This document shows, one piece after another, positions 2,327 through 16,166 of a DNA stretch of 40,103 nt. Source of the DNA: Candidatus Avelusimicrobium bubulum (GTDB lineage Bacteria; Elusimicrobiota; Elusimicrobia; Elusimicrobiales; Elusimicrobiaceae). The translations under genes and the position numbers were made by a program. Numbering within the stretch: the first letter of the stretch is position 1; the number at the start of each line of letters is the position of its first letter. Under the pieces are notes generated by a model. The model worked only from the letters and a program-made list of their open reading frames with translations. It searched no databases and had not been told where the DNA came from. The DNA lies in the NCBI GenBank assembly GCA_902798835.1, contig CADBYN010000006.1, forward strand, positions 1-40,103, given 5' to 3'.

Positions 2327-3130
2327 CTACATTCCAAACCGCTCAACCGTCGGCCCGTCTCCATACCGGCCCATCGTTTTTTCGATAAATTTCAACGTGG
2401 TTTTAGGTGCAAACCCGTTAAAAAGGAACGATTCTTCCGTCCTGTAACAGGGGAACTCCTTGAGTTCTTTTGCCGCCAACCCCGCCGGCACCGTAGCCGT
2501 TACCACGCCTATTATGCCTCCATTTTTCAACGTAACAGCTCCGCCCGAATTGCCCGGGTTTAACCCAAATCCGCACGAAGACCACATAGATTGTTTACCT
2601 CCGAAATAAAGCACTTTCTTCGAGCCGGTAAATAGTTGCATTTTCCCGTTTTCCCACCAGGGCACCTCTACATCATTTCCTTCCAAATTTAAATCCATCA
2701 ATCCATACCCACCGTGTACGTATAGCACCGGGATGGTCTGCTCGGGGGTTTCCTCCTCTCCCGGCTGGTGGTGAATGAGAGCTACGTCCCAACTTTTGGG
2801 AATCGTTTGAGAAGGAGTTGCTTCCACCGGGCGGTATTGTTTGGGAACAAAAATCTCTCGTCTATCTATCGGCACCCAGGCATTTACCGGTCCGTGCGCC
2901 AACAAAATTTTAACTTGGCAGGTGGCATCCTTCTTGCATCTGTCTACACAATGGGCCGCCGTAATAAACCAATTTTGGTGAATACGAAAAGTTTGGCATT
3001 GTTCTTGGTAATTTTTACCCTGGGCGATCAATTGTTTCTGGAACATATAATCGTCCGCAAAGACCTCACGCGCAGACGAAAAAGTCCCGGCAAACACACA
3101 CAAAGATAACGCTAAAAATAGTTTTTTCAT
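2327..3130 (-). CDS. Secreted trypsin-like (S1 family) serine protease
   Basis: 267 aa with an N-terminal signal peptide (MKKLFLALSLCVFAGTFSSA). The chymotrypsin-fold catalytic triad is complete: His60 in FITAAHCV, Asp115 in WDVALI and Ser195 in NPGNSGGAV. Several cysteines (for example C61/C65/C71, C186 and C228) suggest disulfides in an exported protein. There is no PDZ domain, so it is not a DegP/HtrA protein; it resembles stand-alone bacterial trypsin-like proteases. The gene is monocistronic. A TATACT hexamer lies six bases before the ATG, which predicts a leaderless transcript. The substrate is unknown; export to periplasm or medium is inferred from the signal peptide. Confidence 0.88.
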   Translation of the reverse strand: MKKLFLALSLCVFAGTFSSAREVFADDYMFQKQLIAQGKNYQEQCQTFRIHQNWFITAAHCVDRCKKDATCQVKILLAHGPVNAWVPIDRREIFVPKQYRPVEATPSQTIPKSWDVALIHHQPGEEETPEQTIPVLYVHGGYGLMDLNLEGNDVEVPWWENGKMQLFTGSKKVLYFGGKQSMWSSCGFGLNPGNSGGAVTLKNGGIIGVVTATVPAGLAAKELKEFPCYRTEESFLFNGFAPKTTLKFIEKTMGRYGDGPTVERFGM

Positions 3131-3136
3131 ACTGTA

Positions 3137-3142
3137 AGTATA
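3137..3142 (-). promoter_or_regulatory. Putative -10 (TATACT) of the serine-protease gene
   Basis: TATACT on the minus strand is separated from the ATG (3130) by exactly six bases, the spacing expected if transcription begins at the start codon. The flanking region is A+T-rich. Confidence 0.45.
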
Positions 3143-3207
3143 TATAATAACCCTCTAAAAAACCAGGGCAAAAAGGCCTAATTTTCCCTAGGCCTTGATG
3201 AAGCGGG

Positions 3208-3263
3208 GCTCGCTTTGCTGCGCAAACTCGCATAAGTCTGCGGCTTTCAAATCCCGACGTGGC
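3208..3263. repeat. 56-bp direct repeat, copy A
   Basis: Nearly identical (one mismatch) to 3328-3383, exactly 120 bases further on. The segment contains TTTCAAATCCCGACG, which resembles the T-psi-C arm of a tRNA. It lies between the serine-protease gene and tRNA-Ser, a stretch with no convincing coding sequence: the open frames across it on both strands derive from the repeat and from the antisense of the tRNA. Confidence 0.85.
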
Positions 3264-3327
3264 TCTTCACGGATTTGGTCACAAGTCGGCTCGTTGACCC
3301 TCGCCGCTCGCGACCCCGCCTCGCCAT

Positions 3328-3383
3328 GCTCGCCTTGCTGCGCAAACTCGCATAAGTCTGCGGCTTTCAAATCCCGACGTGGC
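3328..3383. repeat. 56-bp direct repeat, copy B
   Basis: Second copy of the 3208-3263 repeat. It is followed by a small inverted repeat (GGCCTGAAGCAGTTCAGGCC at 3381-3400). Confidence 0.85.
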
Positions 3384-3420
3384 CTGAAGCAGTTCAGGCC
3401 ACTCCACTCTCTGCCAATTA

Positions 3421-3447
3421 AAAAAGCACCCAAACGGGTGCTTTTTA
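3421..3447 (-). terminator. Terminator downstream of tRNA-Ser
   Basis: A perfect stem AAAAAGCACCC / GGGTGCTTTTT with a 4-base loop lies just beyond the tRNA 3' end. It is symmetrical, so it could work in both directions. Confidence 0.85.
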
Positions 3448-3448
3448 A

Positions 3449-3537
<89 letters not shown>

Positions 3538-3591
3538 AATTATACCGTTGCCGAGTGGCGGGCGCGGGTACCTTTTTCTATTGTACTAAAT

Positions 3592-4485
3592 TTAGTACCG
3601 AGCTTGGGAACGCGACGCACTTTGTCTTTCCATAAAATGTTGGCAAAACGCTTTGACATGTTCCTGCTGGGAAATACACACTAAATTACGCTGGGTATCC
3701 CCTAGATCGTACGCACGGAATAACCGGTAAGGGGCCATTTGATTTTGCCGTTGGGCGGCTACACCTTGAGGCTCCAATTCCAAGGAAAAATCGTTTGACA
3801 GAGCACAACGGCTACTTTTTTCACTCAAGCACGGGGTAAAATTTAACTCGCTCCACCGGGTAGCATAGCTGCCGTGATTATTATAATAAGCATGTTGCGC
3901 AGAACGGGCTTGTTCCAAGGCATCGGCGGCTACCCCCGCGCGGGCTTGTTCCAAAGCGCGGGCATATTGCGGTAGAGCAATAGCTGCCAAAATTCCCCCC
4001 ACAAACACAACAAGCAGCAACACAAAAAAGCCAATAATCATCGCGATCATACAACCTTGCTTTTCGTTGGGGGTTTCATCTATCACCAAACACCCGGCCA
4101 TTTTATCATGCAAGCATTGTTTCCGCTCTGTCCACAAACACATCAAATAGCCAATACATAAAGTAAGTCCGGAAACAATACAACCCAAGTAACGCCCTAA
4201 TGAACGCCAAAAAGAAATACGTTGTCCGTTTTCATCGGTTACTTTAAGGCCGAATATCCGTTTGCCGATAGTGGCTTGCCACGAGGAACACTCCGGGCAT
4301 ACAAAATAACCAATAAAAACACCCAGCCCCAGCAAAATCCCGACTACTTGGATGGCCGCCTGATTGGCTCCCATCCGCGCCAGCACAAAGCCGAATATAA
4401 ACCCGATTATTAACGAGATAAAGTAACTGATAAAATAGTCCAGCAGATAAGCTGCGGTACGTTTCCAAAAACTTGCGTATGTCAT
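3592..4485 (-). CDS. RDD-domain membrane protein fused to a type IV pilin-like domain
   Basis: 297 aa. Residues about 1-135 form an RDD domain: FWKRTAAYLLDYFIS with the conserved R and D, a second hydrophobic stretch, ATIGKRIFGLKVTD, and a third membrane segment with conserved HDKMAG. Residues about 143-175 form another hydrophobic helix ending GGILAAIALPQYARALEQAR, the typical N-terminal helix of a type IV pilin. It is followed by a pilin-like alpha/beta head (AYYNNHGSYATRWSELNF) with cysteines C214, C222, C267 and C276. The prepilin peptidase site (G before F/M) and Glu5 are absent, so this pilin module is probably not processed and stays anchored by the RDD helices. SD AGGAG is upstream and a TATAAT lies at 4524-4529. 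I know no function for such a fusion. Confidence 0.8.
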   Translation of the reverse strand: MTYASFWKRTAAYLLDYFISYFISLIIGFIFGFVLARMGANQAAIQVVGILLGLGVFIGYFVCPECSSWQATIGKRIFGLKVTDENGQRISFWRSLGRYLGCIVSGLTLCIGYLMCLWTERKQCLHDKMAGCLVIDETPNEKQGCMIAMIIGFFVLLLVVFVGGILAAIALPQYARALEQARAGVAADALEQARSAQHAYYNNHGSYATRWSELNFTPCLSEKSSRCALSNDFSLELEPQGVAAQRQNQMAPYRLFRAYDLGDTQRNLVCISQQEHVKAFCQHFMERQSASRSQARY

Positions 4486-4523
4486 ATTTTCTCCTTTACA
4501 TAATTTCCACGTCTATCTTGTAC

Positions 4524-8160: not shown

Positions 8161-8682
8161 TTATAATCGTGAAGCCCCGCCCAAAATATCGTACTTGATA
8201 ACACATTGGTTGGGGTCGATTAGATTATCTCTCCCTATGCGAGCATAGACACGAAGGTATGGCCCGGATGTGGTACTGGGATTCACTTCCGTTCCGTACG
8301 CCATTGAACAGTGATAATCTCTTTCCGTGTTATTGATGTTTACGCTGGGATCTGCCCCCACAACTTCCCCGTTTTCATTCACCTCGTTTGCCGATGTACC
8401 CGGAGGCGGATTGGTGCTTCCTTCCTCTGCATTATAAAATCGGCAGTTGGCTAAATCGTCTGCGAACTGTTGTGGGGTCTTTCTTGCCCATATCTCAGCA
8501 ATTTCTTTTCTGCACGCTTCAATAAGCATCTGTGCCTCCACCGTACGGCGCAGCATCCGCGCGGAGCGGGTGCGGGGCATGATGGCACGTAAAATCATAG
8601 TAGATAACCCCGCCAATACCGCGGCAATAATAAGCACTTGAAGCAAGGCAACCCCTTTTTTATTGAATTGAAATCTACGCAT
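8161..8682 (-). CDS. Minor pseudopilin, GspK/PilX-like (Gln at position 5)
   Basis: About 173 aa from ATG 8682; AGGAGGA is well spaced for this start, whereas GTG 8688 lies too close to it. The N terminus MRRFQFNKKG|VALLQVLIIAAVLAGL has the basic leader, the Gly before the cleavage site and the hydrophobic pilin helix, but position 5 is Gln instead of the near-universal Glu. GspK/PilX tip pseudopilins characteristically lack Glu5. It is last of a run of six prepilin-like genes and overlaps or nearly abuts its upstream neighbour. Cysteines in the head may form disulfides. Confidence 0.8.
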   Translation of the reverse strand: MRRFQFNKKGVALLQVLIIAAVLAGLSTMILRAIMPRTRSARMLRRTVEAQMLIEACRKEIAEIWARKTPQQFADDLANCRFYNAEEGSTNPPPGTSANEVNENGEVVGADPSVNINNTERDYHCSMAYGTEVNPSTTSGPYLRVYARIGRDNLIDPNQCVIKYDILGGASRL

Positions 8683-8684
8683 CT

Positions 8685-9317
8685 TCACTCCTCCTCAACA
8701 ACGGGAAACCCGTGCTGCATGACAAACGTTTCCTCAACCACATCATTGACAACCGGGTCTGTTCCAACTTCCACAATAATACTCACCTTCAACAATGACC
8801 CGACTTGGTCTTGTTGTTGGTATGTGATTTGCTCAAATCGCGGGGAAATAAAACCGGACGGATCGTTTTTTACGGTTTTTATGTTGCTAAGCCAAATTTC
8901 ATTATTGACAGGCACCCCTTGTTGTGATACACTCCGTTTGATTACCCCGCCGGTGTTGCTATTCTCTTTCTTAGTAAATTCATAGGTAATGAGTACGGGG
9001 TGATCAACAGTCATAGGCGTTGTGTCGCCCAAAACCCCAATATATTTCTGCCCCTGCGGATGCATGTGATTTATCTTTACCGATTTGACGGTACCGTCGG
9101 GATTTTTATAGACCCCTACTTGATCCGCAAAGGCAATGTCTTGGCGCAACTGCTGCATGGCTAGTGATAACTGATGACGCAACATTACCCGCGTGCGGCC
9201 CACGCCGCCTTCGCGCACGGCCGCCGTGGTAAGTGCCGCCAAAGCAATGCCAATCACCCCCACAATCAGGGCCGCCAGCAAAACTTCCATTAACGTAAAG
9301 CCTTTGTTATTCTTCAT
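8685..9317 (-). CDS. Pseudopilin, GspJ/PilW-like
   Basis: 210 aa with leader MKNNKG|FTLMEVLLAALIVGVIGIALAALT, i.e. a canonical type III signal with Phe1 and Glu5. The head is long and beta-rich, in keeping with GspJ/PilW-type minor pilins, and ends in an acidic EEE. Its ATG overlaps the stop of the preceding gene by four bases (ATGA), so translation is coupled. Confidence 0.8.
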   Translation of the reverse strand: MKNNKGFTLMEVLLAALIVGVIGIALAALTTAAVREGGVGRTRVMLRHQLSLAMQQLRQDIAFADQVGVYKNPDGTVKSVKINHMHPQGQKYIGVLGDTTPMTVDHPVLITYEFTKKENSNTGGVIKRSVSQQGVPVNNEIWLSNIKTVKNDPSGFISPRFEQITYQQQDQVGSLLKVSIIVEVGTDPVVNDVVEETFVMQHGFPVVEEE

Positions 9318-9769
9318 AATTCGTATCCGTTACATGTAACTTTAAACTTAATTCTGTCCGGGCGGACACCTCCGCTATAGGGCGCCCAAAAACTATTATC
9401 TAATTCATACGTAAAACTGGAGCTATTCCGATCACAAATAGGCGGCAACATACATTCAACGTGATGCGGTCCACTCCAACTCATGGGCTGTTGGTCTCCC
9501 CCACACAGGCCCTGTTGAAAGTCCTCAGGAATAGGGGCGTCTGTCAATACTGCCCCATTTTCGTCCACAACTCCGGTGTACATTTGAAGCAAGTTTTTTA
9601 CTTTTTCTACGGCAAATACCATCTCTTCGCGCACGTCCGGCTGGCTGGTCTGCCGGGATGCCGCCAGCAACACGCCAAAGGCGCCCCCGGCCACAAGGGC
9701 CAACAACCCCAAGGCAATAATGCCTTCCAAAACGGTTACCCCAGCTTTACTTTTTAATAGTTGCTTCAT
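9314..9769 (-). CDS. Pseudopilin, GspI/PilV-like
   Basis: 151 aa with leader MKQLLKSKAG|VTVLEGIIALGLLALVAG. Glu5 is present while position 1 is Val instead of Phe/Met. The small head has four cysteines (around CGGD, ECML, PPIC and VTC). SD GGAGA precedes the ATG. It sits between a pilin-like gene and the GspJ-like gene, the usual place of the I/V type subunit. Confidence 0.75.
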   Translation of the reverse strand: MKQLLKSKAGVTVLEGIIALGLLALVAGGAFGVLLAASRQTSQPDVREEMVFAVEKVKNLLQMYTGVVDENGAVLTDAPIPEDFQQGLCGGDQQPMSWSGPHHVECMLPPICDRNSSSFTYELDNSFWAPYSGGVRPDRIKFKVTCNGYEL

Positions 9770-9781
9770 AAATTTTCTCCG

Positions 9782-10327
9782 CTAATCCAGCTTAGGACAT
9801 TCTTCCGTAACGCTATGATCCCGGTACACGCACCAGGTGTCACCAGCATGTCTCCTGGCGGCTTCCGTTCCTACCGCTCTAACAAGCAAGCTTATGTCCT
9901 GGTCCAGCAGCCAATCTTTACGAGACGAAAACTCATACGGCAAGCCCTCAAAATCCTTTACAGACAAGTAACCGCACGCGAACAACTGCGTCAACGTGGT
10001 CGTCACATTATTATTCGCCCCCGGAATACCCGAAAGCAGCTGTGTATTACACGCAGCTTGTGCAGCCTCCCGTGCGGAAACAGAGTCGTCACTTGCGGAC
10101 TCCGTTTTCCCGGCTATTGTAGGTCCCTCGGGATCGAAAGTAACGCCTTTTGTGTCTTTGTAGTACAAACGTACAGCATCCGCCATTTTAACAGCAGCGG
10201 TTTTAGCCTGGTGGTACGTAATTTCATCGCGGACCGCGCGTATCCCGGGCATGGCAAACGAAACTACTACTGCCAACACAAGCAGTACAGCTAAAATTTC
10301 CATCAACGTGAAACCTTTGGTATTCAT
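9782..10327 (-). CDS. Type IV pilin-like protein
   Basis: 181 aa with leader MNTKG|FTLMEILAVLLVLAVVVSFAMPGI, canonical for class IVa prepilins, and SD AGAGGA six bases before the ATG. The head contains the pilin-like CGYLSVKDFEGLPYEF element and a C-terminal cysteine pair region (WCVYRD, EECPKLD). Third of the last four genes upstream of the peptidase. It could be a GspH-like or an additional major-pilin-like subunit. Confidence 0.8.
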   Translation of the reverse strand: MNTKGFTLMEILAVLLVLAVVVSFAMPGIRAVRDEITYHQAKTAAVKMADAVRLYYKDTKGVTFDPEGPTIAGKTESASDDSVSAREAAQAACNTQLLSGIPGANNNVTTTLTQLFACGYLSVKDFEGLPYEFSSRKDWLLDQDISLLVRAVGTEAARRHAGDTWCVYRDHSVTEECPKLD

Positions 10328-10335
10328 AGTATCCT

Positions 10336-10860
10336 CTAATTATTGCGCAAGGGGTTCTCCAAAAATTTCGACCCGTTCCCGTTCGTGCAATAAATGGCTG
10401 TATCTGTAATTTTTGCCGAATTTTTCTCTATACAGACCCCGGTGATCCAGTTTACGTCCGAAGATCTTTCCTTATACTGCTCTAACCACATTTTAAAATT
10501 TCGCTTGTAATTTTGTCCGTCACGCACTTCCGCGGCATATTGCCGATATTCCAAGTACCCGCAGTCCACCAAGTTCTGCAAAGAAACCGTATTGGTGAAG
10601 CAATGCGGCACACCGCTTGCTCTTTCTCGGTTTGGATCGTTTATTTGCCCCATTTCATTTGTATTAAGCACAGCGCTGGGATGATCCATCAAAAAACGCT
10701 GCGCGGCGGCCGCCACAATTTTAGCACGGGCCTTGGCATCTTCTACGCGGATATCCGAGGCAGTACCCCGAAACGATTGCGTTGCAAAAATTGCCAACGT
10801 GCCAATAATGGCCGCTGCAATTAATAATTCCAACAAGGTAAAACCGTTTCTGCGTTTCAT
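10336..10860 (-). CDS. Type IV pilin-like protein
   Basis: 174 aa from ATG 10860 (GAGGA six bases upstream); an in-frame TTG at 10875 overlaps the expected SD and is rejected. Leader MKRRNG|FTLLELLIAAAIIGTLAIFA has Phe1 and Glu5. The head shares an element with its neighbours (LQNLVDCGYLEYRQYAAEV), pointing to duplication within the cluster. Confidence 0.82.
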   Translation of the reverse strand: MKRRNGFTLLELLIAAAIIGTLAIFATQSFRGTASDIRVEDAKARAKIVAAAAQRFLMDHPSAVLNTNEMGQINDPNRERASGVPHCFTNTVSLQNLVDCGYLEYRQYAAEVRDGQNYKRNFKMWLEQYKERSSDVNWITGVCIEKNSAKITDTAIYCTNGNGSKFLENPLRNN

Positions 10861-10875
10861 AAAATTCCTCGCCAA

Positions 10876-11463
10876 TTAACTACCACACTTGTCTGCTTTA
10901 AAACGTTCAATACGCCCTGTTGCATACATCCGTGCACCGTAGAAACAACCCGTTGCATTACTGATACTCTTCTGACACATACACGCAATCACCGGCGCGA
11001 TGACTGTGCTTCCTGCCGGCTTCGGACAATTACCGCCGCAAGCGGTGGGTTTCCCCGCATCTTCGTTGATACCGTAGAAGTTGTAGCCGTCGTCCGATGC
11101 CAGCGGCTCCAAGTAATTCAGCGCAAACAAAGTGGCCGCGAAACGTTTATTGGTATTACTTCCCCCATGGCTTATAAAATAGCTGGGCGTGTCGATACAT
11201 CCCAACTGAACGGTACCGTTAACAGGCATCTGAAAGGAGCCAGCCCCCGTCGGGAACGTAAACGTATAGTTTTCCTTCCAGGATAAATCTTTGCGCAGCG
11301 ATTCAATAGCGTTACCGATGCTGACTAACGTACCTACGGCCGCCTCGTAACGGGAACGCTCTTGCGAACGCTTGTAGGCCGGTATGGCATACGCCACAAT
11401 TCCGGCCACAATAACCAGCACAAATAAAATTTCTACCAGCGTAAAACCTTTCCTGCGCAACAT
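10876..11463 (-). CDS. Type IV pilin-like protein, first gene of the pilin operon
   Basis: 195 aa with leader MLRRKG|FTLVEILFVLVIVAGIVAYA and a head rich in cysteines (CIDTP, CGGNCP, CMCQ, GCFYG, KCGS). It is the first gene behind the strong promoter at 11491-11519 and has an excellent SD (AGGAGG), so it may be the most abundant subunit (major pilin or major pseudopilin). It shares the FALNYLEPLASDDGYNF element style with the next pilins. Confidence 0.82.
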   Translation of the reverse strand: MLRRKGFTLVEILFVLVIVAGIVAYAIPAYKRSQERSRYEAAVGTLVSIGNAIESLRKDLSWKENYTFTFPTGAGSFQMPVNGTVQLGCIDTPSYFISHGGSNTNKRFAATLFALNYLEPLASDDGYNFYGINEDAGKPTACGGNCPKPAGSTVIAPVIACMCQKSISNATGCFYGARMYATGRIERFKADKCGS

Positions 11464-11490
11464 AACACGCCTCCTAGGGTGCCTTTCTTA

Positions 11491-11519
11491 AGTATGGTGC
11501 ATAAACGCCCATTTGTCAA
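11491..11519 (-). promoter_or_regulatory. Promoter of the pilin/pseudopilin operon
   Basis: TTGACA (11519-11514) and CATACT (11496-11491) with a 17-base spacer, about 28 bases before the first pilin ATG and in the gap after pilC. A perfect -35 and optimal spacing suggest strong expression independent of the upstream assembly genes. Confidence 0.75.
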
Positions 11520-11536
11520 GGGCTTGCGTCCGCTTG

Positions 11537-12760
11537 CTAGCTACCGATTTGAGACAGTTTGAAGATCGGCAAGAAGATGGACGCCACAATAATACCAATC
11601 AGCACACCGACACTGACAATTAAGATCGGGTCGATTACCGCCGAGAAACGTGCAATAAACTGATCCACGTTATCAGCGTAGAATTTAGAAAGGGTTTGAA
11701 TAATGCTAGGTAATTTACCGGATTCTTCACCCATTCTCATCATTTCCGTCATCAGCCCGGGGAATACCCCTGTGGCGGCAAACGAATCGGAAATCGACTG
11801 ACCGGCCGCTACTTCGGCGCGCACTTGCTTAAGCGCGTTTTGGATGATGATGTTCCCTTCGAACGATTCTTCCAATACTCCAATAGCGTTCAAAATGGTT
11901 ACACCGCTACGCAGCAAGGTGGCCAACGTGGAAAGCATACGGTCAAAGTAAATATTGCGGATGAACGGACCAAAAATAGGCATGGTCAGCACAAACGAGT
12001 GCCAGCGTTTACGTCCGTTGGGCGTGTGGATATAAAAACGAAACCCAAATATAATGAGGAGAAACACTAAAATCAGCGCAATGGCATGGTTGGTAATGAC
12101 GCTGGATACTTTAAGCACGGCAACCGTCAACATAGGAAGTGACAAGTTAAAGTCCGCAAAGATCTGCGCGAACGTAGGTACAATTCCCACGATGAAGTAA
12201 ATAAGCACACCCACGGAAGCTAACGTCAAAATAGCCGGGTAGGTGATAGCCGTAATAATTTTGCTCTTCATCCCTTCTTGCGTTTTGGTATAGATGGCCA
12301 GTTGCATCAACGTCTCGGCGATTTGACCGCCTACTTCCCCGGCTTCCACCAGCGAAATCCACACATGGCTAAATGTTTTGGGATGCTGGGCCATGGCTTC
12401 GTGTAACGATTGACCGCCCGAAATATCGTGCGAGATTTGCGTAAGCACCATCCCCATCGTGGGGTTGGCGGAATATTGCCCTAACAAAGAGATAGCACGC
12501 ACGAGCGGCACACCCCCGGCGATTAACGTGGACAACTGTTCTGCAAAAAAGGCCAACACGTGCCCGGGCACTTTGCCGCCTTTGCGCCGCGTACCCGACT
12601 TAACAGACGAGAACAATCCTCCCGTCGCCTCAGAAATATCCAATACGAAATAGCCCTTGTTTTGCAAAGCCGCACGCAAGCGGTCTTTGCTGTCGGTAGT
12701 ATAAGAACCCGTAAAGATCTTCCCATGTTCATCTTTTACTTTGTATGTATATTTTGGCAT
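11537..12760 (-). CDS. pilC: Type IV pilus / type II secretion platform protein (PilC/GspF)
   Basis: 407 aa, typical length. Inner-membrane platform on which the assembly ATPase acts. Two T2SSF domains are visible, each with the motif pattern LSTLIAGGVPLVRAI / LATLLRSGVTILNAI, with membrane helices around ILTLASVGVLIYFIVGIVP, IALILVFLLIIFGF and the C-terminal ILIVSVGVLIGIIVASIFLP. It follows pilB by 21 bases with SD GAGGG. Confidence 0.93.
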   Translation of the reverse strand: MPKYTYKVKDEHGKIFTGSYTTDSKDRLRAALQNKGYFVLDISEATGGLFSSVKSGTRRKGGKVPGHVLAFFAEQLSTLIAGGVPLVRAISLLGQYSANPTMGMVLTQISHDISGGQSLHEAMAQHPKTFSHVWISLVEAGEVGGQIAETLMQLAIYTKTQEGMKSKIITAITYPAILTLASVGVLIYFIVGIVPTFAQIFADFNLSLPMLTVAVLKVSSVITNHAIALILVFLLIIFGFRFYIHTPNGRKRWHSFVLTMPIFGPFIRNIYFDRMLSTLATLLRSGVTILNAIGVLEESFEGNIIIQNALKQVRAEVAAGQSISDSFAATGVFPGLMTEMMRMGEESGKLPSIIQTLSKFYADNVDQFIARFSAVIDPILIVSVGVLIGIIVASIFLPIFKLSQIGS

Positions 12761-12781
12761 AATTTACCCTCTGAAATTATG

Positions 12782-14518
12782 TTATTCATCCGCCGTTGTA
12801 ATACTTAAAATCTCGTCCACGGTGGTAATTCCGCGGATTACTTTGTGCCATCCGTTGGCACGCAAGTTAAGCGCACCGGAATTGTTAGCCGCTTTGCGTA
12901 GTGCAATTAAATCTTGCGTCTTATAAATAATGTTACGCATTTCTTCATTCATGCGGTATACTTCGTAAATAGCACGGCGGCCGCTATAGCCCGTATTGAA
13001 ACAACGCGGGCAACCCACCGCTCTAAAGAACGTCCACGAGTTACGCTCGCGCGGGTTGAGATGCCCTTCGCGAATAATGCGTTCCATGGTAGCTGCATCC
13101 GGAATATGAGGCACTTTACAATGCGGGCAAAGCACACGCACCAAACGCTGCGCTGCCACAAGTGCGAGCGAGCTTGCTAACAGGAAGGGCTCCATCCCCA
13201 TATCGATTAAACGGGGAACCGCCCCCAACGCATCGTTCGTGTGCAACGTAGAAAGCACCAAGTGACCGGTTAAGGCAGCTTTTAAGCACGCCTCGGCCGT
13301 TTCGTTATCGCGGACCTCCCCCACCAGGATGACATCCGGGTCCTGACGTAAGAAGGAACGTAACCCGGCCGCAAACGTAAGCCCGATGGCCGGCTTTACC
13401 TGTACCTGACTGATACCGGCCAGTTTATATTCGACCGGGTCTTCCAAAGTCATAAAGTTCAGTTCGCTGGTACGGATGGTGGTAAGTACGGCGTTCAACG
13501 TCGTAGATTTACCGGACCCTGTAGGCCCTGTCAAAAAGATAAGTCCGTGCGGTAAATTGGCCGCTTCCAAAAACGCTTTCTTTTGGTCCGGCTCAAAGCC
13601 CAACTTATCAATGTTCATTTCCCCCGTTCCTTTATCCAAAATACGAAGCACTAATTTTTCTCCGTATACGGCCGGACACACAGACACACGGACTTCAATG
13701 GAACGGTTTTGATAACGGATGGTAAAACTTCCGTCCTGCGGCAAACGCTTTTCGGCGATATCGAGTTTAGACAAAATTTTAATACGGGAAATAATTGCGT
13801 TTACGGCGTCTTTGGCAGGGGCCGTACGTTCGTAAAGCGAACCGTCAATACGGAAACGCAAACTGACACGTTCATCAAACATCTCTAAGTGAATATCACT
13901 GGTACGCTCGGAAATAGCTTGACGCAAAATAGCGTTTACCTGTTTTACATACTGCGAGGCCGTAGGGGCCATGCGGTCCAGGTCCAACACGCCGGTCACT
14001 TCTACTTCTTCCTCGTCTGCTGCGTTTACATCCGTCGGGCCGGAGTGCACAGTTTCGTTGAGTACTTCTTCCAACAAATTCTTGTTGGTATAGAAAGCAT
14101 CCATCACCGCCAGCAACTGTGACTTAGACGTGATAAACGGCTGAACTTGTTTGCCGGACATCATTTTGATGTTCTCAATGACGAACAAGTTTGTCGGATC
14201 CAAGAGCGCCACTGCCAACGAGTCATCTTCCACAAACAAGGGGACGATCATATTCTCGCGGGCAAATTTTTCAGGGATAATTTCTTGTAGATTTTGTTCT
14301 TTTTCCGGCACTAAAATGCCGTTTTCTTTCGAAGCGTATGGAATGGAAAAATGCTTAGACAGGGCGATGGTCACTTGCTCCTCGGTTGCAAAACCGGATT
14401 GCATAATGGCCTCTGCTATCGGGGTATTGTTTTGCTTGGCATACAAGTGTACTTGTTTGCTTTGCTCCGGAGTAATAACCCCTTGATCCATTAAAATTTC
14501 GTCTAACTGTTTTGCCAT
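12782..14518 (-). CDS. pilB: Assembly ATPase PilB/GspE
   Basis: 578 aa. Hexameric ATPase that drives pilus or pseudopilus extension. The N-terminal MshEN/GspE-N domain (about 1-150) may bind c-di-GMP in some homologues, which is of interest given the PilZ gene nearby. Walker A GPTGSGKST is at 331-339, the Asp box is around MTLEDPVEY, Walker B is DVILVGEVRD (395-404), and the His box is HLVLSTLHTNDA. The zinc site is C464xxC467 with C503xxC506. Both the zinc site and the N domain mark it as an extension ATPase, not PilT. Confidence 0.95.
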   Translation of the reverse strand: MAKQLDEILMDQGVITPEQSKQVHLYAKQNNTPIAEAIMQSGFATEEQVTIALSKHFSIPYASKENGILVPEKEQNLQEIIPEKFARENMIVPLFVEDDSLAVALLDPTNLFVIENIKMMSGKQVQPFITSKSQLLAVMDAFYTNKNLLEEVLNETVHSGPTDVNAADEEEVEVTGVLDLDRMAPTASQYVKQVNAILRQAISERTSDIHLEMFDERVSLRFRIDGSLYERTAPAKDAVNAIISRIKILSKLDIAEKRLPQDGSFTIRYQNRSIEVRVSVCPAVYGEKLVLRILDKGTGEMNIDKLGFEPDQKKAFLEAANLPHGLIFLTGPTGSGKSTTLNAVLTTIRTSELNFMTLEDPVEYKLAGISQVQVKPAIGLTFAAGLRSFLRQDPDVILVGEVRDNETAEACLKAALTGHLVLSTLHTNDALGAVPRLIDMGMEPFLLASSLALVAAQRLVRVLCPHCKVPHIPDAATMERIIREGHLNPRERNSWTFFRAVGCPRCFNTGYSGRRAIYEVYRMNEEMRNIIYKTQDLIALRKAANNSGALNLRANGWHKVIRGITTVDEILSITTADE

Positions 14519-14543
14519 TTCATACTCCCCTTACAAACGATAC

Positions 14544-14575
14544 GTATACCTGCCCTCGGGTGAGGGCAGGTATAC
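14544..14575. promoter_or_regulatory. Perfect 14-bp hairpin between pilQ and pilB
   Basis: GTATACCTGCCCTC and its exact complement are separated by four bases, in the 67-base gap between the pilQ stop and the pilB ATG. There is no T tract, so it is more likely an mRNA processing/stability element or a partial attenuator than a full terminator. Confidence 0.7.
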
Positions 14576-14585
14576 AAACTCACAC

Positions 14586-16166
14586 TTACTCGGCCAAAAT
14601 GGTCGGCGTAATAAAGATGACTAAGTCAGTCGTGCTCTTTGATTTAGCGCGGCTGGTAAACAACCACCCCAGTATCGGGATATCACCCAAGAGCGGTACT
14701 TTGCGGGTTTGGTCGGTTTCGCGGGAGGTCAACAAACCGCCAATCACAACCGTTTGTCCGTTTTTCACACGTACCAAGGTAGAAGCGGCACGGGTGGTGG
14801 TATCGAGGGCAAAGTCAAACCCGGAGCTGATCACGTCGGAGTAAGTAGGTTGTACAAACAACGTGACGTACCCTTCGCGGTTTACCTGCGGGGTGACTTG
14901 TAACGTTAAACCCACACGTTTACGTTCGGCGGAAGTCGTGGTGGTAGCCGTGGCAGTTGTGCTGCCGGTATCGGTTACCGTGCGGCCTACCGTGGCGTCC
15001 GTGGAGGTGGTAATCGTAGCGGTTTTGTTGTTCAAGGTAACCACTTTGGGTTTACCTAAGTATTTGGCTTCACCGCGGGTCAAAAGTGCTTTGAGCACAA
15101 TGTTAAAGGCAGAGAAGTTGAGCACGCCGGCTTCTATGTTACCGGAAGAGCTATTAGACGTAGTTTCGCCATAATCCGTCGTGGTGGTGGTAGAGTTGCT
15201 GTCTTTATCCGCGTCCACCTCTGATTTGCTAGGGAAAATCCAATCCCAGCCGTGCAATTTGTTTCCGTCCACACCGCGGCCGTGGAATACATCGGAATAC
15301 AACGGGCGGGTAGGCGCTTGCACGGAAACAATCGTTCCGTCGCCGCCGCCGTATTCAAAGCCCAAGCTCAAACCGCTGGTTTTGCTGACTTCTACGATTT
15401 GGGCTTCAATTAAAATCTGCGGAGGTTTAATATCCAGCTCGGCCAAGATGTTTTCCACTTGCGGGAAAACTTCCGGCACGTCGGTAATGATGAGCTTGTT
15501 GGTGCGCGGGTCTACGGCAATTTTACCCACGGGAGAGAGCATGCTGCCCACAATCCCGGTAATGGTAGAGCCGGAAGCATAGGAGTCGCCCCCGGTGTTG
15601 CCGCTTTGTCCGTAACTGCCCATGTTTCCGCTGGATACGTCTTGCGGCATAATGCTGTTGAGTTCCCCTTGGGCAGAGCCAAGCCCTTGCAGAGAAATGT
15701 AGCTAAGCGTATAGATTTTGGTAATGGTATCGGGTGCATCGTTGGAGCGTTTGGTTACTACGTAGCTATCGCTCTTACCGATACGTTGATAAGCCAGGCC
15801 GTGTACCCGCAACAAGGTATCGAGTGCTTCACGCACGGTTACGCGGGTCAAAGAAGCCGTTACTTTTTTATTGGCGAATTCTTCGCTCATAATAAAGTTA
15901 ATTTTGGCTTGGGTAGTAATACTGTTCAAGAAAGCCGATATCGGCACATTGGCTACCCGGATAGAGACAATTCTGTCCAGCGGGGACTGCAATTCTATCT
16001 CTTTATATAAGTCCTCTGCAGCGGTGGACGTTTTTGCCTCATTACCTACTAGCGCAATCGTATCGTCGCTGGGGAGTATCTGGCGTTCTTGTTGTGCTAC
16101 CGCCGTACCTGCAAGCCCCAAGGCTATTACGCTTGCGAATATTACAGCTATACGTTTTGTCATCAT
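14586..16166 (-). CDS. pilQ: Outer-membrane secretin (PilQ/GspD family)
   Basis: 526 aa with a signal peptide (up to GTAVAQ). It forms the gated outer-membrane channel for the pilus or secreted proteins. A STN-type domain (VPISAFLNSITTQAKINFI) is followed by an N1-like domain (about 150-245, interrupted by a Gly/Ser-rich insertion GSYGQSGNTGG), then the secretin domain. The latter has VDPRTNKLIITD, PPQILIEAQIVEVSK and the C-terminal signature VPLLGDIPILGWLF. A Thr-rich loop (TTTTTDYGETTS) lies within the barrel region. SD AGGAGG precedes two adjacent ATGs; the second (16163) has the better spacing. Confidence 0.93.
   Translation of the reverse strand: MMTKRIAVIFASVIALGLAGTAVAQQERQILPSDDTIALVGNEAKTSTAAEDLYKEIELQSPLDRIVSIRVANVPISAFLNSITTQAKINFIMSEEFANKKVTASLTRVTVREALDTLLRVHGLAYQRIGKSDSYVVTKRSNDAPDTITKIYTLSYISLQGLGSAQGELNSIMPQDVSSGNMGSYGQSGNTGGDSYASGSTITGIVGSMLSPVGKIAVDPRTNKLIITDVPEVFPQVENILAELDIKPPQILIEAQIVEVSKTSGLSLGFEYGGGDGTIVSVQAPTRPLYSDVFHGRGVDGNKLHGWDWIFPSKSEVDADKDSNSTTTTTDYGETTSNSSSGNIEAGVLNFSAFNIVLKALLTRGEAKYLGKPKVVTLNNKTATITTSTDATVGRTVTDTGSTTATATTTTSAERKRVGLTLQVTPQVNREGYVTLFVQPTYSDVISSGFDFALDTTTRAASTLVRVKNGQTVVIGGLLTSRETDQTRKVPLLGDIPILGWLFTSRAKSKSTTDLVIFITPTILAE

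Follow-up and report, generated by a model that had tools for sequence, protein, structure and literature searches.

Type IV pilins are usually viewed as subunits made for cutting and polymerisation. What can a pilin-like domain do when it is joined to a membrane domain of the RDD family and has none of the signals on which cutting and polymerisation depend? The question is raised by a gene of Candidatus Avelusimicrobium bubulum, a rumen or gut bacterium of the Elusimicrobiota, found on the 40,103 nucleotides of contig CADBYN010000006.1 that were analysed here as a whole and are called the window. The encoded protein is probably unfit for incorporation into a pilus and is more likely to act on pili, or to sense something, from within the membrane. 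In a conserved, uncuttable pilin attached to a membrane domain of obscure role, the function of the head is uncoupled from filament assembly, which offers a handle both on the function of the RDD domain and on how dozens of pilin genes are managed within one genome.

The fusion gene and its RDD domain

The initial annotation had placed an RDD-pilin fusion at 3592-4485, which proved correct, and the gene lies on the minus strand, with the ATG at 4485 and the stop codon at 3594-3592. According to the list of open reading frames it is a single ATG-started frame of 297 uninterrupted codons (297 aa), whose product is 65% identical over its full length to the ortholog in genome G009. An RBS-like AGGAG (4491..4495, minus strand) can be read in the sequence five bases before the ATG, and downstream of the gene lies a tRNA-Ser(CGA) (3450..3537, minus strand), which is also a neighbour in the orthologous loci. 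A frameshift or the joining of two genes, which had been considered at the outset, is ruled out by this single frame and by the recurrence of the same layout in many genomes of Elusimicrobiota and Pseudomonadota.

Residues 3-131 (4093..4479, minus strand) match the RDD family (PF06271) with an E-value of 9.6e-31 and a score of 107.3 bits against a gathering score of 24.1, which makes the protein a member of this family, and the characteristic Arg/Asp/Asp residues (R9, D16 and D127) are invariant across six aligned rows. An AlphaFold2 model of the window protein together with five relatives (mean pLDDT 80.0) predicts helices at residues 6-38 and 42-66 and a short helix at 92-109, followed by one long helix at 141-204 and then by beta strands and a C-terminal helix. 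The multi-helix RDD domain with its K/R-rich loops suggests that the ends of the domain face the cytoplasm. According to a passage that cites work in preparation (PMC12419801), RDD domains hold a conserved intramembrane ligand site facing the cytoplasm.

In the structural comparisons, the modelled RDD half (residues 5-140, window 4066-4473) resembled 7t92_A, the membrane domain of a RING peroxin from the peroxisome (VIA Z 10.5, rmsd 3.6, 127 aligned; Foldseek E 0.041). Helical bundles can reach such scores by chance, but the gap to the next non-pilin row, at Z 4.8, is large. A search for literature combining RDD, FAM8A1 and HRD1 found none.

The pilin-like tail

The RDD domain is followed by a transmembrane, pilin-type helix alpha1 (residues 141-204; 3874..4065, minus strand), delimited by the model, the register test and a hydropathy peak at 153-171, and by a pilin-like beta-sheet head (residues 205-288; 3622..3873, minus strand) with cysteines at 219, 227, 270 and 281, recognised from the models, Foldseek/VIA-align and hhalign. 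The segment ILAAIALPQYARALEQAR, which the initial annotation had quoted as a pilin-type helix, was found at residues 165-182. Searches of the tail in Pfam and NCBIfam gave weak matches only (ComP_DUS, E 0.083; PilA_Myxo, E 1.2e-4; GspG, E 0.002). When 13 fusion tails were compared with 19 own-genome pilins by hhalign, a probability of 99.9 over 154 columns was obtained, and with the hydrophobic part removed the head alone still reached 99.4, the E-values of these comparisons being pairwise and rough.

The pilin fragment was also modelled alone with AlphaFold2 (mean pLDDT 81.9). The top Foldseek match of this model was Neisseria PilE (1ay2; E 8.8e-3, probability 1.00), with no match at E 0.001 or below, and in VIA-align ranks 1-18 were all type IV pilins or pseudopilus, including 4noa (Z 8.7, rmsd 2.9, 93 aligned) and 1ay2 (Z 8.1, rmsd 3.3, 127 aligned), with the first unrelated row at Z 4.8. 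The assignment as a pilin rests on this predicted fold, a long alpha1 with an antiparallel sheet, and on the profile homology with the resident pilins.

Loss of the prepilin motifs and of helix constraint

PilD requires a G-1 site, and Glu5 is required for filament assembly. When the register is counted from the proline (P22) of LPQY, the window fusion has V at position 5 and I at position -1, and the RDD domain precedes the helix, so that the prepilin leader with its G-1 and Glu5 are both missing, as had been noted initially from the sequence. The loss of Glu5 extends throughout the fusions, which is a new observation: the residue is present in none of the 33 fusions with a readable register versus all 24 own-genome pilins, 23 of which also have G-1 (the own-genome row L011, whose frame begins within the helix, was left out). 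Reading of the three fusions from Pseudomonadota showed that they lack Glu5 too.

A second new observation concerns the filament-packing half of the helix, which is the most conserved part of canonical pilins and no better conserved than the heads in the fusions. Among 104 pairs of canonical pilins the half-helix identity averages 93% versus 43% for the heads, with the order reversed in none, but the canonical set was chosen by a pattern requiring Glu5 and several half-helix residues, so that its half-helix identity is raised. Pairs were retained only with six or more 4-mers in common between the heads and a head identity of 30-90%. Of nine fusion pairs, five show a lower identity in the half-helix than in the head, e.g. 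33% versus 60% between the window and its G009 ortholog. In detail, these two proteins are identical at 107/137 positions of the RDD domain, 15/35 of the transmembrane segment with the half-helix, 12/33 of alpha1C and 51/82 of the head. The dN/dS values of the tail range from 0.08 to 0.55, all below 1, in the 13 of 14 pairs that were computable; the pair of the window and G009 was saturated. The filament-packing segment has lost its special constraint, and the head is still under selection.

Distribution of the fusion

The initial annotation had called for a survey of RDD-pilin fusions over the Elusimicrobiota. A profile search of 340 genomes from this phylum gave at least 40 full-length rows, reaching from the start of the RDD domain to model position 265 or beyond, so that the architecture is present in at least 39 genomes; two more rows were partial among the matches listed. 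The full-length fusions fall mainly into two groups, A, comprising the window type and more distant allies, and B, which is a separate RDD clade with a support of 100. In L065, which comes from another family of the order, a complete pilin helix stands behind the RDD domain.

A third RDD clade, group C, consists of an RDD domain, a transmembrane segment and a soluble tail, spans both families of the order and has one member in the genome of the window. Its assignment to the pilin fusions is unsupported, as its tail gave an hhalign probability of 4.4 against the pilins of its own genome; for the tails of unrelated RDD paralogs the value was 2.1. Within group C (L066-L083 and, from the own genome, L084 on contig C11) dN/dS of the tail was 0.13-0.23 in three pairs, and LemA-like genes, named by eye, lie near L083 and L084. 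Members of a related genus (L101, L102 and L104) have an RDD domain, a long acidic linker and a possibly pilin-like tail (hhalign 57.5 versus own pilins).

Outside the phylum, matches at E 1e-15 were found in 45 of 398 genomes of Pseudomonadota, three of which extend through the pilin helix, and the corresponding loci (L117-L119) read as RDD-pilin. On L117 and L119, Pfam gave RDD and Pilin (PF00114; E 4.7e-14 and 4.1e-15) above the gathering scores and zinc ribbons below the threshold. These proteins may represent an independent fusion. In Acidobacteriota, 77 of 297 genomes match at E 1e-15, but among the matches listed the alignments end at model position 202 or before, nearly all of them at the RDD domain, and a pilin tail was absent from the 12 loci that were read. 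In open-licence PMC papers no description of an RDD-pilin fusion was found; one of them (PMC4657364) mentions both RDD and pili, in two unconnected passages, on a Tat operon and on a pilus cluster.

Genomic locus

The window contains a type IV pilus/T2SS-like cluster (8161..16166, minus strand) with pseudopilin-like genes (8161-11463), PilC/GspF (11537-12760), PilB/GspE (12782-14518) and PilQ/GspD (14586-16166), all on the minus strand. The linkage to this nearby pilus that was proposed at first was not supported, as PilC, PilB and PilQ lie at 11.5-16.2 kb in the window but PilB, PilC and PilQ queries had no match in any of 12 orthologous regions, of which L209 covers the same genome as L062. 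One pseudopilin query matched one of these regions (L204) with 30%. A conserved operon with the pilus cluster is thus ruled out, and the cluster lies near the fusion gene only in the window genome.

The usual neighbours at the orthologous loci are mrp-aspC-pckA and, in part of the regions, fmt-PASTA-rpe-trmD; mrp is a neighbour in 11 of the 12 regions, and tRNA-Ser(CGA) is present on the fetched piece in 11 of 12 as well. Only in the window and the L060 ortholog has the gene moved, and since these two share a setting unlike that of the other loci, the pilus cluster at 8.2-16.2 kb is a derived neighbourhood. In genomes G000 and G009 (window 2327-4485 and L060) it seems that tRNA-Ser(CGA) was relocated jointly with the fusion gene, and that the new site adjoins one gene of trypsin-like and one of peptidase-MA-like type.

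Conserved linkage to pilus genes was likewise not found for the three fusions of Pseudomonadota. A canonical pilin gene lies within 1.5 kb at 9 of 17 loci of group B and at 1 of 19 loci of group A, against a background of 9 starts per 215 kb, but because the loci are related and not independent, the proximity in group B is only suggestive.

Variation of the heads

The mrp/tRNA-Ser(CGA) locus carries a conserved RDD domain with a variable and sometimes absent head, which is a third new observation. In G003, G027 and G031 the RDD domain stands there without a head, so that the head is dispensable at this locus, and when the DNA behind L036 and L037, two of the headless orthologs, was translated in three frames and inspected by eye, no trace of a head was recognised. 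Two further orthologs, L040 and L103, look degenerate.

The head of the G030 fusion is closest to canonical pilins (G030 47%, G015 46%, G001 46%; best other fusion head 44%), as would be expected if heads track resident pilins, and the window head is closest to the fusion heads of G009, G018, G096 and G019. This suggests that heads may be drawn from, or may converge on, the resident pilins. The G030-type pilin is matched in 17 of the 21 genomes searched, including G096 and G019, which have the window head type, so that there is no clean pairing of heads and pilins. The head tree needs 6 changes, but neither the grouping of 14 fusion heads in one clade (p 0.126) nor that of the seven group A heads (p 0.425) is rejected by the AU test, and multiple independent origins or head swapping can therefore not be taken as established.

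In genome G000 (1.35 Mb) the query had 71 matches, most of them in pilin-like genes. In some canonical pilins the head is very long and contains repeats, named by eye as YD/RHS-like (L012, L016, L026) or cysteine-rich (L019).

Possible function

With a probability of roughly 0.45, we favour the explanation that the fusion is a membrane-locked, non-assembling pilin or pilin mimic which acts as a pilus accessory in the manner of TfpY. The RDD domain is joined to the N-terminus of the pilin domain, whose alpha1 would span the membrane in the same direction as in ordinary pilins, and from the hydropathy and the K/R-rich loops we infer that the head is placed in the periplasm. The protein should be kept out of the filament because PilD could not process it, no free N-terminus is available and Glu5 is absent. 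Within the inner membrane, the head and the remaining helix might then contact pilins or minor pilins, and the RDD part might anchor or gate the protein through a putative cytoplasm-facing ligand site within the membrane. The fusion would thus work as TfpY does, by priming or holding pilins, without being a homologue of it. Permanent membrane tethering and a chaperone, priming or sensing role, as suggested initially, are plausible, with TfpY as a precedent for a priming factor that has several helices and stays outside the filament. Evidence for an accessory role comes from the architecture and predicted fold, the homology of the tail to resident pilins, the missing motifs, the relaxed half-helix, the selection on the tail, the recurrence of the fusion, the G030 head and the closeness of group B fusions to canonical pilin genes. 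Evidence against an accessory role comes from the lack of conserved pilus linkage in group A and in the three fusions of Pseudomonadota, the headless orthologs and the lack of a clean match between heads and pilin types.

A serious rival, possible in our view though somewhat doubtful, is that the protein is an RDD sensor or regulator whose pilin head is merely a convenient periplasmic ectodomain and whose partner is not the pilus. The RDD domain is indeed the conserved part (51-78% identity versus 29-53% for the tail, between the window protein and the other six members of group A), headless versions persist at the same locus in three genomes, other RDD paralogs carry tails without recognisable pilin character (tD and tC, with probabilities of 2.1 and 4.4 against pilins), pilus linkage is absent from the 12 orthologous loci as well as from the fusions of Pseudomonadota, and SppI provides a precedent (PMC7568657). 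On the other hand, pilin heads were gained or retained in at least two phyla and the G030 head remains near a canonical pilin. Weighing the precedent of TfpY, the intramembrane site of RDD domains and SppI, we prefer the pilus accessory over this sensor.

Unlikely in its full form is a scheme in which the fusions constitute a recurrent class of uncleavable pilins in two phyla, with an RDD intramembrane sensor and an exchangeable head matched to the host's own pilins, that would gauge or gate the pilin pool of the inner membrane; in the Elusimicrobiaceae the RDD domain would stay at the fixed mrp/tRNA-Ser(CGA) locus and the head would be replaced or lost.

It is improbable that the protein serves as a specialised filament subunit or as an anchor of the base, docking at the bottom of the pilus and staying in the membrane to cap or hold the filament. 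In favour of this, most members of group A keep the pilin helix and fold, but Glu5 is missing from 33/33 fusions, the half-helix is relaxed and LPQY is gone from the G009 ortholog. A transient non-functional fusion or an annotation artefact, at which the divergent heads and the headless or degenerate-looking orthologs (L040, L103) might hint, is very improbable given the continuous frame, the occurrence in at least 39 genomes and in a second phylum, and the purifying selection on the tail.

Comparison with known systems

The pilus accessory that we favour has its closest parallel in the TfpY/FimB-like accessory proteins of Pseudomonadota (PMC11841053). By its authors' account, TfpY of Pseudomonas has several membrane helices and a variable periplasmic region, stays out of the pilus and primes assembly, and the authors think that major and minor pilins interact with it. 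The multi-helix membrane N-terminus and the variable periplasmic C-terminal domain are shared with the fusion, as is the concentration of similarity in the membrane part. TfpY differs in that three helices and a mixed beta domain of its own are described for it, with no RDD or pilin homology in that description. The likeness is one of layout only.

With type IV pilins and GspG pseudopilins the fusion shares the predicted fold, profile homology and the P22 helix register, but it is joined to an RDD domain and lacks the leader, the PilD site, Glu5 and the half-helix constraint. SppI of Bacillus subtilis, whose C-terminal domain inhibits the membrane protease SppA according to PMC7568657, has in common with it an RDD domain (PF06271) with the R/D/D residues and an additional C-terminal domain; in the fusion this domain is a pilin, and the gene neighbours seen here are mrp, tRNA-Ser and fmt. 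The zinc ribbon-RDD-pilin proteins of Pseudomonadota (L117-L119) likewise have a pilin helix and a head behind the RDD domain and lack Glu5, but they begin with a zinc ribbon-like segment, below the Pfam cut-offs, and carry a PilA-like head.
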